Position numbers and translations under genes: made by a program. A stretch of DNA of 47,982 nucleotides from Bifidobacterium breve (GTDB taxonomy: Bacteria; Actinomycetota; Actinomycetes; Nanopelagicales; Nanopelagicaceae): the NCBI GenBank assembly GCA_945866305.1, contig CAMBGS010000004.1:1-47982 (forward strand), read 5' to 3'. The notes below the pieces were generated by a model. It did no database searches, was not told the DNA's origin, and was given only the letters and a program-made list of their open reading frames with translations. Shown piece after piece: positions 41,647 to 47,982 of the stretch; position 1 is the stretch's first letter; each line of letters begins with the position of its first letter.

Positions 41647-42648
41647 ATGCGCAAAGTTGCTCTAGCCCTTTTGATGATGAGTGCGCTGATTTTCTCTTCG
41701 ACGCCAGTTTCTCAGGCTGGATTAAATGCACCAGTTAATCTCGATAACCCTCGAGCGGTTCCAATCTTTGGGCAGGAAGGCCCCTCACAAGTTAACTTGA
41801 TGGCCGGATGGAGTGGATTCCTATATTCACCACGTATTGTCTTTAGCGCTGCACATTCCTATTACCGTTTTGAGGCCAATGGTGATCGCGTTTTGATTGC
41901 GCCTAAGTATGTAACTGTAGGTAAACCTAACTCCTCAGTTAAGAGTACTGAAGGTAGAGCAAAGGTCATTCAGACTTATGTAGGTGATTATAGAAAATCA
42001 TCAATGGGCGGACAAAACGACTTTATTGTTCTTGTATTAGATAGAGATTTAGCCAGCATATCTGCAGCAAAGTTGATGACTGCAGAAGCTGAGGCTGAAT
42101 TAGTTAAGGCACGAGCAGAGGTAGTTTTCCATGGCTACGGTGAGTATCGAGATCGTTGTGATCCCGGCCAAAAGAATCCGTGTGCTGAGGATCGGAATAA
42201 TCCCAATAAAAGCCCAAGCGAACTTCCGCGAATTATGAGATCTAACTTGGCTCCCAAGTCTGATTTTCCATGGTTGCAAGGCCAGCAACTTACTGATGTG
42301 GCAAAAGAAACACTGTTAACAAATCTTTCATCCTGCCCTGGTGACTCTGGTAGTGGGATGACAACCACCTATAAAGGGAAGGTAATTTATGTGGGGCAAG
42401 CCTTTTCATCTGGAATGAATTTCTATGCCTGTGGAGCATCTAACACCCCTGCTAATGAAAAACACCCCCGAGAGCTTGCTGTTTTTTCTCCAATTTATAA
42501 GCATTTAGATTTAATCAAGCAAGCTGAAGAATTTGTGGCCCAACAAGTTGTAGTCGGAAAGTCTACGATCCAATGTATTAAGGGAAAAGTAGTCACGAAG
42601 ATAACTGCAATAAAACCTGTTTGCCCAAAGGGTTATAAGAAAAAATAA
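41647..42648 (+). CDS. Secreted trypsin-like serine protease
   Basis: Signal peptide; catalytic-triad motifs FSAAHSY, NDFIVLVLDRDL, CPGDSGSGM. Confidence 0.85.
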   Translation: MRKVALALLMMSALIFSSTPVSQAGLNAPVNLDNPRAVPIFGQEGPSQVNLMAGWSGFLYSPRIVFSAAHSYYRFEANGDRVLIAPKYVTVGKPNSSVKSTEGRAKVIQTYVGDYRKSSMGGQNDFIVLVLDRDLASISAAKLMTAEAEAELVKARAEVVFHGYGEYRDRCDPGQKNPCAEDRNNPNKSPSELPRIMRSNLAPKSDFPWLQGQQLTDVAKETLLTNLSSCPGDSGSGMTTTYKGKVIYVGQAFSSGMNFYACGASNTPANEKHPRELAVFSPIYKHLDLIKQAEEFVAQQVVVGKSTIQCIKGKVVTKITAIKPVCPKGYKKK

Positions 42649-42741: not shown

Positions 42742-43278
42742 CTATTTTTCTATTGCAATAGGAGGTGCGAAAGCCAACCGAAGTGCTACTTGATTTGGTT
42801 TTAAAGCGCTAGAAGTGGTTAGGTCAAAGTTTGCGCCTTCAAAGGCAGAAACTTCAGCTTTCTTAAGTGCAATGCTAAATTCAAGGGCTCGCATTGTTCC
42901 CAGTTCTGAACCTTCGGTTTTATCATCGAAGCCACCAACGATTTGAGCATAAATTACACCCGAATCTCTGGATAAATTCTCACGGAGAAAATATGCTTTT
43001 AAATCACTCTCTATTTGAGATTTGTTGAATGTTGAATAATAAAAATTAAATCCTTGCTCAATTGGTGACTTTTCCTGGCTCTTAGAATCCTGTATGTTCA
43101 AAACTTGACCAGTGGAATTAATCGGTGTTGCGGCATCTCCAGTTGCACCTGGCACGGCAAAGGAGATACTTGTCAGGAAAATTACGGAAAGGCTCAAGAG
43201 TAAATCAGCAAAAACCCATCCCGCGATATTTACAGAGTCATCTTGTTCGGGCTCAACAAAGAGCTCTCTCCGACTCAC
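42742..43278 (-). CDS. MotB/ZorB-like single-TM protein with OmpA-like C-terminal remnant
   Basis: NIAGWVFADLLLSLSVIFLTSISF (MotB-like FAD-LL TM with conserved Asp); GGFDDKTEGSELGTMRALEFSIAL resembles an OmpA-like G-x2-D...RA..V...L pattern; 4-nt overlap with upstream partner. Confidence 0.55.
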   Translation of the reverse strand: MSRRELFVEPEQDDSVNIAGWVFADLLLSLSVIFLTSISFAVPGATGDAATPINSTGQVLNIQDSKSQEKSPIEQGFNFYYSTFNKSQIESDLKAYFLRENLSRDSGVIYAQIVGGFDDKTEGSELGTMRALEFSIALKKAEVSAFEGANFDLTTSSALKPNQVALRLAFAPPIAIEK

Positions 43279-44030
43279 TTTTGAAATTTCTCTATTAACT
43301 TCTGAATAGAACCTAATTGCTGCCGAATAGCAGAACCTTTAGCAAGTTCGGCGGCGCTCTTCTCAGAAGACTTCATCAATTTTCCAACGGAGGATGTGGA
43401 TGCGCGAAGATCACGAATTGCCGCTGAAATACTCTGGTTAAGAATAACCGGAGTCAGAGCCTTAAATTTAAAAGTGAATTCATTTATATCAAGTGCGAGA
43501 TGTAAACGCTCTTGGTCAATTTCAGCTTTCTCAGCATTGCGTCGAACTTTGGATGTCTGTTGCAAATAAGCGATCGCGATAGAAGCAATAATTACTAGCG
43601 TTAGCAAAAGAAAGTCAATACGTGCGATGTTACTTAGAGTCCAGAATTTACTTAAGACTCCGTAACCATTTTCCCAGAAATCAAAGAAGTTCACGATCTT
43701 GTTAGGATTTGACTCTGAATAACTAGAGAAAGCCGTAGTTGCTTGGCTAATTCCCGCCCAAGTGAAAGCAACTGGTACGAAAACCATAATATTTCTAAAG
43801 GTAATCAGTCGTTCTGATAGAGAGTTTTCGCGGAGACCAGATTTAATCTCCGGATATGGCATCATTTCGGTTGCGTCATAGCCAGACCAATAGTCGAGAT
43901 CAGCACCTTTCTCTACAGACGGGATTAATCGGGATATATAAGCATCTTCGATTAGGTTGTGTTTCTTGGCCCAAATCCCAATTTTTGATGCTAATTGCGG
44001 ATTCGCTACTGCAGATTTCTTAGATGCCAC
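43275..44030 (-). CDS. Membrane protein, candidate MotA/ZorA-like partner
   Basis: Two predicted TM segments (LITFRNIMVFVPVAFTWAGI; IDFLLLTLVIIASIAIAYL) and a long helical cytoplasmic tail; ATGA overlap with MotB/ZorB-like gene. Confidence 0.5.
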   Translation of the reverse strand: MASKKSAVANPQLASKIGIWAKKHNLIEDAYISRLIPSVEKGADLDYWSGYDATEMMPYPEIKSGLRENSLSERLITFRNIMVFVPVAFTWAGISQATTAFSSYSESNPNKIVNFFDFWENGYGVLSKFWTLSNIARIDFLLLTLVIIASIAIAYLQQTSKVRRNAEKAEIDQERLHLALDINEFTFKFKALTPVILNQSISAAIRDLRASTSSVGKLMKSSEKSAAELAKGSAIRQQLGSIQKLIEKFQK

Positions 44031-44146: not shown

Positions 44147-45268
44147 GTGGATATTCTCAAACTTGACCCTAATGAAGAGGATGAATACCGCGAGGACGCA
44201 GAGATAGAAGCAGAAGTTGAAGAAGAAGAGCTGGGTATTGCGGCTCCGAAGAAACCATCCGTAGCTGACCGCAAGTCATTTAAATTCGGCATAGCAGCTG
44301 CGTTTGTTTACACATTAGTCCTGATAGGCGACACAATCGGTGCGAGGATCACACTAAATGGTGCAAACCCAATTGAATATGGTCAAGGCTCAATAGTTGC
44401 TCAAGCATGCGATGACGATGGGATACGCGTATCTGCCATTTCGTATACCGATACTTCAACGGTGCCTTATTCGTTCTATCTTGCAGGAATCCGCCTTTCT
44501 GAGATATCTGATGCCTGTATCAACCAGACATTTAAGCTAACAATTCTGGATTCAGGCGCTAACGCTTTAAATCTTGGATTTAATCAAATGACGGGTGGCA
44601 CCGGCCCAGATGCGACTTTCGCTAAATTTTTACTGACTAGAAATTCATCTGATTCAGATGGCATTGATTGGCGCGTTTTCCCGACGTCAACTTTTCCAAA
44701 TCCACCCTCCGAAACAGGCTTGACGATCTGTGGTGGTGATTACGATTTGTCAGACACTATTGATTATGACTTTGGTGCCGATATTCCGAAACCGGGTTGC
44801 CCAGAAAATAATTACCTGATCCATTGGCGCGGGTTTGTTAAGATTCCAAAGACAGATGATGGCGTTAAGCACGATGTGGTTTTCTCTTTGTTTAGCCTCG
44901 GCAAAGCACAGGTTCAAATTAATAACCAGAACATAATTACAGACCGAAACGGTCACGATTTTGGCAAAGTTACCGGAAGCATTCCAATGCAGTACGGCCG
45001 CTCTTATGGAATTGATGTTTGGATGCATAAAACAACGGGCAATGCCAAGATAAGACTGGACTGGAATGTTGATTCCGAGACAACAATTCCTGCCGGCGTA
45101 TTCCAGTACGACTCCTCAATTTCGGCACAAGTCTCTGCCAGCGAAGGTACAACAGACTATTACGCGACCTACTCACCAAGCTCTGCCAATTCCCGCACTT
45201 TCACCGTTTTCTTCCCGCGAAAATTGCCAGCAGATTCCGTTAAGAAATTCACGTTGGAGACATCCTGA
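44147..45268 (+). CDS. Membrane-anchored extracellular protein with EFGQG module and PA14-like domain
   Basis: GTG 44147 preceded by AAGGGG; acidic cytosolic N-terminus, TM, then ARITLNGANPIEYGQGSIVAQACDDD; PA14-like YLIHWRGFVKIPKTDDGVKHDVVFSLFSLGKAQVQINNQNI...IRLDWNVDSE. Confidence 0.6.
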   Translation: MDILKLDPNEEDEYREDAEIEAEVEEEELGIAAPKKPSVADRKSFKFGIAAAFVYTLVLIGDTIGARITLNGANPIEYGQGSIVAQACDDDGIRVSAISYTDTSTVPYSFYLAGIRLSEISDACINQTFKLTILDSGANALNLGFNQMTGGTGPDATFAKFLLTRNSSDSDGIDWRVFPTSTFPNPPSETGLTICGGDYDLSDTIDYDFGADIPKPGCPENNYLIHWRGFVKIPKTDDGVKHDVVFSLFSLGKAQVQINNQNIITDRNGHDFGKVTGSIPMQYGRSYGIDVWMHKTTGNAKIRLDWNVDSETTIPAGVFQYDSSISAQVSASEGTTDYYATYSPSSANSRTFTVFFPRKLPADSVKKFTLETS

Positions 45269-46032
45269 TGCTTCGTATGTCCCAGGTCCGTAACCTAAAC
45301 AAGGGGGATAATTCGTATAAAAGGAAGTTGGCGGTCCGCTTTATCGTTCTGAGCCTGAGCGCCTTTTTTCTCTCGCAAGTAATCCCGACGCTAGCCGAAG
45401 AGCAGGATCGAGCGACTGAGTTAACTGAGGAGATCGCACCGACTGATTCGTCCCCATCGCCTTCACCGAGCTCGGCAACAGAAACGGCAACTGCTCCGAG
45501 TGATGCACCAAGTGGCTCGGCCAGTGCTAGCCCGAGCAGCACCCCGATCGTGTACCCAGCAAGACCATCGCAGTCGCAAGGAATGGTGATTCAAGTTCCA
45601 AATGAAATTTCAGTTGACCCACGCGCCCAAATTGTCCGAATTCCAAAGATTACCGTTTCAGGCCCGGAGTACTTATTAGTTTGCATAAATACTGTCAACA
45701 CAGTCGTTGATGTATTAACAATTGGGGCACCCGATAACGTAAACGCCACTAATCTGTATATAAGTGGTGACTTGAGTTCCACTGTAACGATCTCTGCCCC
45801 CACCACTTTGGTGAATACCGTCTTTAACGCTTCAGGCGGCGCCAAGGTCTCTGCGTTGGGGCGCTCGCTGGCAGGTCAACAGATTCAAATCGGATTCCTG
45901 GCTACCGATAAGCAAGCCGAGAATTCGTCGCTCTGCCCGAAGATTTTCGCGGAAAATCGCCGCGTACTATCGATAAATGCCGGGGGGGTAGGCATAGGAA
46001 TGAAAAAGGGAGAAGTGACTCTCAAGCGCTAA
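45268..46032 (+). CDS. Secreted/membrane-anchored protein with Ser/Pro/Ala-rich linker
   Basis: Hydrophobic N-terminal segment FIVLSLSAFFLSQVIPTLAE, linker SSPSPSPSSATETATAPSDAPSGSASASPSSTP, then a beta-rich globular region with two Cys; TGATG coupling with upstream gene. Confidence 0.6.
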   Translation: MLRMSQVRNLNKGDNSYKRKLAVRFIVLSLSAFFLSQVIPTLAEEQDRATELTEEIAPTDSSPSPSPSSATETATAPSDAPSGSASASPSSTPIVYPARPSQSQGMVIQVPNEISVDPRAQIVRIPKITVSGPEYLLVCINTVNTVVDVLTIGAPDNVNATNLYISGDLSSTVTISAPTTLVNTVFNASGGAKVSALGRSLAGQQIQIGFLATDKQAENSSLCPKIFAENRRVLSINAGGVGIGMKKGEVTLKR

Positions 46033-46168
46033 ATTCCGCGCTTATGGCATATTTTCGGCAATCCGAATAGGCTCTGGGGATTAGCTCGGGCACACTGGCA
46101 ACGAGCAGTTACAAATTGAGGAGGTGGTACCCATCGCAGGAAACTTGGGATCACCTCTAAGCGGAAAA

Positions 46169-46819
46169 ATGAACAATGGTTTCGCCGGAATCGGTGGAGC
46201 AAAATCAAAATTGATGTTGGGTGTTGCAGTTGTTGCACTCGTTCCATTTTTGATGTCAACATTTGCCGCGAATGTAACAGTTGGTTCTGGCGCACTTGAA
46301 TTCGGCCAAGGCTCTCAGCAAGCAATTGCATGCGACCCGACTGTTTTTGTTTCGATTGGCGAAGAATGGCATTCACAACCTACGCCTACAGATGCATCCG
46401 CCGGATTTTTCCGAGTCAAAGCGGTAACAATTTCAAATCTTGATTTGAATTCATGCCGTAGCAAGAAATTACGCATGCGTCTTATTAATACGACTGGTTC
46501 TGAAATCCCGATTGGCGCGAGCGCTGATGTGCGCGTATTACAAATTGTTGTCCCTGATGTTGACGCTCAAGTCAGTTCGAGTGATGCAACATATTTACAG
46601 CTTGCCTCGCTAAATGGTGACGGCGGCGTAGTTGGCGGCACCCTTGTGTCGGCTGCTTCACTGAATATCGCCGGTACATCTATCTACGATGGCAGCGATC
46701 TTTCAACTACATCTGCAGACGTTACCTATTACTTGGACCCAACGAGCTCACTCGTCAATATCGACGGTCAGATTGTTGGACGCACAACGGTGGAAACCGT
46801 AAATAACCCAAAGCGCTAA
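46169..46819 (+). CDS. Membrane-anchored/secreted EFGQG-module protein (start uncertain)
   Basis: TM then AANVTVGSGALEFGQGSQQAIACDPT; longest ORF starts 46124 but that GTG lies in the AGGAGGT; ATG at 46169 is the conservative start. Confidence 0.6.
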   Translation: MNNGFAGIGGAKSKLMLGVAVVALVPFLMSTFAANVTVGSGALEFGQGSQQAIACDPTVFVSIGEEWHSQPTPTDASAGFFRVKAVTISNLDLNSCRSKKLRMRLINTTGSEIPIGASADVRVLQIVVPDVDAQVSSSDATYLQLASLNGDGGVVGGTLVSAASLNIAGTSIYDGSDLSTTSADVTYYLDPTSSLVNIDGQIVGRTTVETVNNPKR

Positions 46820-46964
46820 ACCGCCTTGGATGAAGAGATTTGTTGGGTCTGCGCAAGCCTGCCCAGCAAAACAGATCGCTGATCGGCGCTTGGCTGCGGG
46901 GAAGTAGTCAAAACGAGAGGCGGTTTGGGGTTCTCCCAAGCGGTCATTCTGGCTGAGGGGTGGC

Positions 46965-46999
46965 CCTTGACCCACCCTTGACTCACCCTCTGGGTGAGT
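46965..46999. repeat. 11-bp tandem repeat plus 8-bp inverted repeat in the intergenic region
   Basis: CCTTGACCCAC-CCTTGACTCAC, then ACTCACCC-TCT-GGGTGAGT. Confidence 0.6.
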
Positions 47000-47063
47000 G
47001 ATTGGATTGAGCCGTTGTCCACCGTGGGCAGCGCCACTACGTACCGCGCAAAGGACATTTCAA

Positions 47064-47687
47064 GTGGAGATTTTAAAGTTTGCAGAACCACCAAAGCGTA
47101 ATTCACGCACCAATACAAAAAAGCGTGGCGGAATTATGCCACTACTCGCAGTTGTAGTCTCTGTAGCCGTTGTCGGTGGCATGAGCACAACTCTTGCGGG
47201 AACTATTTCTCTTAACACTTCAGGAAGCGTTGAATTCGGTCAGGGAGTTGTAACAACAGCTGCTTGTGATACAACGATCAAAATTCTTCCTGCCTCATCA
47301 TTTGAAACATCAACGTCAACTTTCAATGTTTCGACAATTGCCTTGCAAAATATCGGAAGCAACGGCGGAACAGAGACATCAACCGCTGGCGCTGGATGCC
47401 TTGGAAAGAAGCTGACACTGAAGGCGTATAACGCTAGTGGGGAAGCGCTAACCATGAATGCGGCTAACGGTACGGAAATCTTTGTAACCCTTCCAAGCTC
47501 GGTTACAAACGCGAATGACAATGCCAGTTACACAACTAAGACTGCGACTGCAACCATCACTGGCGCCGGTAGTTTTGGCGGCGATACGGGGCAAGATGGT
47601 CCAACAAACGCCGGTACATTCACAATCGGTAACTTGAAAATTCCAGGTTCCGTTACAAAGATCACCATTGAAAGCAGCGAAGCTTAA
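47064..47687 (+). CDS. Membrane-anchored/secreted EFGQG-module protein
   Basis: GTG 47064 preceded by AAAGGA; TM MPLLAVVVSVAVVGGMSTTLAG then TISLNTSGSVEFGQGVVTTAACDTT. Confidence 0.65.
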   Translation: MEILKFAEPPKRNSRTNTKKRGGIMPLLAVVVSVAVVGGMSTTLAGTISLNTSGSVEFGQGVVTTAACDTTIKILPASSFETSTSTFNVSTIALQNIGSNGGTETSTAGAGCLGKKLTLKAYNASGEALTMNAANGTEIFVTLPSSVTNANDNASYTTKTATATITGAGSFGGDTGQDGPTNAGTFTIGNLKIPGSVTKITIESSEA

Positions 47688-47806: not shown

Positions 47807-47982
47807 ATGCCGAACTTTCGCCGCATCTTCGATGACCCTAGCGACCCGGATATCTGGATTGCAGATGAGAGTCCAGAATCTGAAAAATATGTTCTAGTCA
47901 CAGTATCTGGTGACAAAGGAGAACAAACCGTCCTCGTGACGTCAGATAAATCATTTGAAAGTAAAGCACGCCATTTTGTGCA
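47807..47982 (+). CDS. Hypothetical protein, 3' truncated by window edge
   Basis: ATG with AGGGGGAG upstream; open frame MPNFRRIFDDPSDPDIWIADESPESEKYVLVTVSGDKGEQTVLVTSDKSFESKARHFV... Confidence 0.5.
   Translation, partial: MPNFRRIFDDPSDPDIWIADESPESEKYVLVTVSGDKGEQTVLVTSDKSFESKARHFV

Follow-up and report, generated by a model that had tools for sequence, protein, structure and literature searches.

A conserved actinobacterial locus of two-cysteine module proteins with its own SipW-type signal peptidase, a candidate surface fibre system

The stretch of DNA analysed here (the window, 47,982 nucleotides) ends in a cluster of genes for secreted or membrane-anchored proteins, listed in Table 1 from open reading frames called mechanically. 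Three of these proteins, P1, P2 and P3, share a module with two cysteines; P4, the fourth secreted gene in the cluster, lacks the module and lies between them. The preliminary description placed the end of the cluster at position 47687, and we found that it runs further, as a signal peptidase gene begins at 47807 and is cut by the end of the contig. A second contig of the same genome (C69, locus L082) continues the locus, its first 149 bases being identical to the window end, and beyond the peptidase it encodes a 527-aa polytopic membrane protein, a 315-aa collagen-like protein and proteins of 202 and 122 aa. The window holds the front half of a conserved multi-gene locus, truncated by the contig end. 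Just outside the locus, at 41647-42648, lies a gene for a secreted trypsin-like protein (Pfam Trypsin, 2e-6).

Table 1 Genes of the locus and its flank within the window.
Gene or product	Coordinates	Strand	Features
P1	44147..45268	+	373 aa; acidic cytosolic N-terminus (VDILKL), single transmembrane (TM) signal, EYGQG-Cys module
P4	45268..46032	+	254 aa; single TM, Pro/Ser-rich linker, ~130-aa C-terminal domain with two conserved Cys
P2	46133..46819	+	conserved N-terminus GL-x-SPLSG-x-V-x-SGFGG
P3	47064..47687	+	207 aa; V/MEILKF N-terminus, TM signal ending STTLA, two-Cys module
SipW/archaeal-type signal peptidase I gene, N-terminal part	47807..47982	+	contig end cuts gene
251-aa protein	43275..44030	-	two apparent TM segments; divergent from P1
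178-aa partner	42742..43278	-	one TM, conserved W-x-[YF]-A-D motif (MotB/ZorB-like segment)

The motifs by which the module had been recognised are in frame in all three proteins (P1, IEYGQGSIVAQACDDD; P2, LEFGQGSQQAIACDPT; P3, VEFGQGVVTTAACDTT), and pairwise searches bore out the proposed relationship: with P3 as the query against 822 ORFs, P2 was matched at 7e-8 and P1 at 4e-5, and 22 further ORFs, all of them in related genomes, also scored 3.2e-5 or better. Judged by these matches, P1, P2 and P3 are true paralogs and not a chance likeness, each with a transmembrane segment followed by the module. An iterated profile collected 28 ORFs from the window and the fetched loci, and in an alignment of 25 rows three positions are invariant, namely the Gly that ends the EFGQG motif and the two cysteines. 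Exactly two cysteines fall within 75 residues from the motif in 82 of the 90 non-redundant members, so that the profile search proposed in the preliminary description did recover a recurrent, clustered family with two near-invariant cysteines. Its view that the module lies outside any named family also held, since searches of the module against Pfam, NCBIfam and PDB sequences returned no meaningful family match except for the PA14-like part of P1; the best PDB sequence matches to the module itself were viral fusion proteins (E 4e-4 to 0.4), which we judged to be chance.

The N-terminal M[DE]ILK[LF], which had been suggested for P1 and P3 from GTG starts at 44147 and 47064, is backed by the pattern M-x-[IL]-[LI]-[KNDRES]-x near the N-terminus of 42 of the 90 members, most of which have an ATG start. 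Loosely defined, the form M-E-I-L-[KN]-[FL] occurs chiefly in members encoded between P2 and the peptidase, and P2 orthologs carry GL-x-SPLSG instead; these cytosolic signatures may be sorting marks. Some relatives have appended regions, which are weakly Lcl_C-like in proteins of L029 and L027, Sortilin-Vps10/BNR-like in L094 and glycine-rich in L093. A further module paralog in the same genome (L036, contig C16, 6935-7564) is interrupted by one TAG stop, and is either a broken copy or the result of an assembly error.

P1 carries a PA14-like domain at residues 200-310 (about 44744-45076), which matches the PA14 protein 6qdi in the PDB at 1e-5 and PF07691 below the cut-off (20.1 bits against a gathering score of 24, E 6e-4). 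The domain had been taken as an addition to the module. The PA14-like match stands, but the domain is inserted rather than appended: it sits between the region of the second cysteine and the final strand KKFTLETS, which in the alignment corresponds to KITIESS of P3.

P2 is the most conserved module protein, with 56-66% identity across orthologs. We place its start probably at the ATC codon at 46133, upstream of the ATG at 46169, because the orthologs conserve the GL-x-SPLSG N-terminus. The ATC aligns with ATG or GTG starts of the orthologs and follows, after 7 bases, a Shine-Dalgarno-like GAGGAGGT at 46118-46125; it is either a rare start codon or an assembly consensus error. A hairpin around this start was considered as a translational control and rejected, as orthologs use other synonymous codons there and do not conserve it.

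By sequence, the gene at 47807 encodes an archaeal/SipW-type signal peptidase I (TIGR02228). The part on the continuing contig scores 62.2 bits against TIGR02228 (cut-off 51.85, E 5e-17) and, when aligned with its homologs, the protein retains the S, THR and KGD motifs of its class (LTQSM...FTHR...KGDNN), with Ser and His, not Lys, as the catalytic residues expected of this type. Further downstream, the collagen-like protein (L082, 2215-3162) matches PF01391 with 52.7 bits (cut-off 27.2) and its C-terminus matches the module profile, whereas the 122-aa protein resembles by eye the beta region of the peptidase and lacks the catalytic motifs. Neither the dedicated peptidase nor the occurrence of the module as a C-terminal domain of collagen-like proteins was part of the preliminary description.

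About ten to a dozen related genomes keep the gene order P4-P2-module(s)-peptidase-polytopic-collagen/module-p225-mini-peptidase-like, which is shared, as far as the contigs extend, by L028, L030, L033, L083-L085, L092 and L095-L097. P4 orthologs immediately precede P2 in at least 10 related loci; P4 is a candidate wall-spanning anchor or starter subunit. On the other side of P4, two-component genes are divergently placed in L033, L083, L084, L085 and L096, and a membrane pair like that at 42742-44030 of the window in L093, L095 and L097; L093 carries the two sets close by, and L028 and L030 have the membrane pair at the opposite end of the locus.

A profile built from 25 members was run on 296 genomes of the host's family and detected the module in 64, often in several copies. 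All 46 of the 296 genomes that bear the peptidase also carry the module (hypergeometric p about 2e-39, a statistic that ignores shared ancestry). The peptidase was not detected in the remaining 18 of the 64, which means that some module proteins are either cut by a different peptidase or remain anchored; several genomes are incomplete metagenome-assembled genomes, which makes absences soft, and one of the 18 (G272) is a single contig with 100% completeness. Many of the 296 genomes lack the whole system, presence is patchy inside one genus, and copy number varies. In a sample of the class the module profile found 11 of 296 genomes, including distant proteins of 130-140 aa from three further families, all of them encoded next to a peptidase homologous to that of the locus. 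A widened profile found 9 of 348 in a sample of the phylum, and the peptidase lay within a few genes in six of the nine loci fetched. These minimal two-cysteine relatives of 130-140 aa have no other domain, and they adjoin a TIGR02228-type peptidase beyond the host's own family and class. Relatives of the module were not found in viral and plasmid collections.

With six sequences as input and the orthologs from the genome searches left out, which limited model quality, AlphaFold returned all-beta models of low confidence for P3 (pLDDT 55, pTM 0.56) and P2 (pLDDT 40), and a fold search of the PDB gave no match under E 0.001, FimA pilins being among the best of the non-significant matches. The suggestion of a conserved disulfide-linked beta domain therefore divides: the cysteine pair is near-invariant, and the common fold with a Cys-Cys bond is putative, the all-beta models being of low confidence. 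As the models were weak and the fold search and profile comparisons non-significant, the argument for the bond comes from conservation, by which the two cysteines probably close the module core with one disulfide.

The content of the locus recalls known fibre systems. In Bacillus subtilis, tapA-sipW-tasA likewise unites an anchored partner, a fibre subunit and a dedicated SipW-type peptidase; SipW cleaves TasA and TapA, and TasA fibres are built by N-terminal donor strands (PMC9674648), TapA being a disulfide-containing Ig-domain starter which donates its own N-terminal strand (PMC10151520). The present module differs in having two near-invariant cysteines and no detectable relationship to TasA/PF12389, and the present locus in having several paralogs together with collagen-like, polytopic, p225 and mini peptidase-like proteins. 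The sipW-bsaABCRSD locus of Clostridium perfringens is comparable in content, with a SipW-type peptidase, a secreted protein that polymerises (BsaA) and two-component genes: sipW is required for BsaA export and polymerisation, and bsaR/bsaS lie in the sipW-bsaA operon (PMC7395162); no collagen-like component is described in the sections of that source covered here.

Type 1 pilins offer a local likeness, since FimA, FimI, FimF and FimG have a short N-terminal strand, a G-x-V-x-F-x-G-x-V-V-x-x-A-C stretch and a second cysteine downstream. Chaperone-usher pilins are exported differently, the present locus encoding neither chaperone nor usher, and we found no PF00419 match among the module members scanned and hhalign probabilities of 1-6% (0.9% and 6%) against the four Escherichia coli K-12 proteins. 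Collagen-like adhesins such as Lcl (PF01391, Lcl_C PF07603) resemble the system in their Gly-X-Y protein and in the Lcl_C-like domains of some module proteins; here, however, the collagen-like protein bears the two-cysteine module C-terminally, and the Lcl_C matches are below the curated cut-off.

The paralog homology, the conserved cysteine pair, the gene order, the peptidase identity and its co-occurrence with the module form the established part of this picture. With moderate confidence, we propose that the locus is a peptidase-processed system making a polymeric surface fibre. P1, P2 and P3 would first sit in the membrane as anchored precursors that carry a basic segment and a single transmembrane signal, and the peptidase encoded directly downstream would release them, probably by cleavage after S-T-[LF]-A. 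Once mature, they would be small all-beta domains in which a short beta-prone strand precedes a core probably closed by the disulfide. Less confidently than the fibre as such, we suggest that the subunits join by donor-strand exchange, the mechanism of TasA fibres and type 1 pili, in which the free N-terminal strand of one subunit would complete the sheet of the next. P2 could then be the main or base subunit and P3-like paralogs further subunits. P1 would be a subunit that displays a PA14-like domain, which may bind glycans; the collagen-like protein would serve as a stalk or cap, docking via its terminal module, and P4 would be the wall-spanning anchor or starter. The preliminary description had already seen a cell-surface or fibre apparatus of paralogs, a reading now strengthened as a hypothesis because the partners fit: a SipW-type peptidase, a module-ended collagen-like protein, a Pro/Ser-rich anchored protein of the P4 type and two-component regulators in relatives.

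Other readings of the same genes have to be weighed. The many paralogs outside the cluster with varied extra domains, and the genomes that hold module genes without the peptidase, would also suit separate secreted or tethered adhesins or receptors, which bind through their PA14, Lcl_C or glycine-rich parts and form no polymer, the SipW-type export route being shared among them. We regard this as unlikely, though a serious alternative, as the core locus keeps the short, extension-free P2 and P3 beside the peptidase and the single-domain minimal relatives of other classes look more like subunits than receptors. A surface coat is harder to sustain: secreted beta proteins that occur in several copies and have their own export route might tile the surface as cell-wall or S-layer-like proteins, but patchiness within one genus, variable copy number and the lack of a recognised wall-binding or S-layer domain in scans of module members make this very improbable.

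A different question is whether the subunits are TasA/CalY proteins (camelysin, PF12389, Peptidase_M73) diverged past sequence detection and forming TasA-like fibres, in which case the mechanism would overlap with the one we favour and the ancestry would differ. The genomic logic is the same, as the locus has an anchored partner and a dedicated SipW-type peptidase and relatives add two-component genes; the proteins are laid out similarly, a signal being followed by a short strand and then a beta domain; and an [IL]-x3-[PC]-G-[DK] likeness can be seen by eye. On the other hand, PF12389 had no match in the same genome or in the sets of 25 and 26 module members scanned, and hhalign of the module against a TasA-like alignment, which does recover TasA in the PDB (8aur, 5of1), gave probabilities of 12% over 5 columns and 0.7%. 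The same genus does contain a protein above the PF12389 cut-off (L098, 1450-2121, genome G021), which looks distinct from the module family, and to our knowledge two cysteines are no feature of PF12389 proteins. We consider this ancestry improbable. On these tests, the locus would work like the TasA and BsaA systems without being filed as a TasA/CalY member, its subunit family being separate.

The membrane pair at 42742-44030 could energise or anchor the locus product, and homologs of its 251-aa protein flank the locus in several relatives. An ortholog of the 178-aa protein (L095) matches ZorB weakly (0.005); as this match in one ortholog was the sole support for assigning the pair to Zorya or another defence system, that assignment was rejected. 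A broader and more tentative idea, which we think rather doubtful as a whole, is that of a phylum-wide actinobacterial filament: a new family of disulfide-closed subunits, unrelated to TasA or chaperone-usher pilins and cleaved by SipW-type peptidases, used in streamlined cells with a module-ended collagen-like part and perhaps a MotB-like pair driving or sensing it.

We know of no surface fibres in small-genome planktonic actinobacteria, to which the host apparently belongs, and of no such extracellular-fibre machine described in this actinobacterial group. The module proteins make up a family, so far without a name, that occurs across several classes of Actinomycetota. If the proposed fibre is real, a 1.3-Mb genome would be spending heavily on it, with about nine genes in one locus, a signal peptidase gene among them, and up to a dozen or more paralogs elsewhere, and the system would provide direct targets for the study of attachment, grazing resistance or phage interaction.
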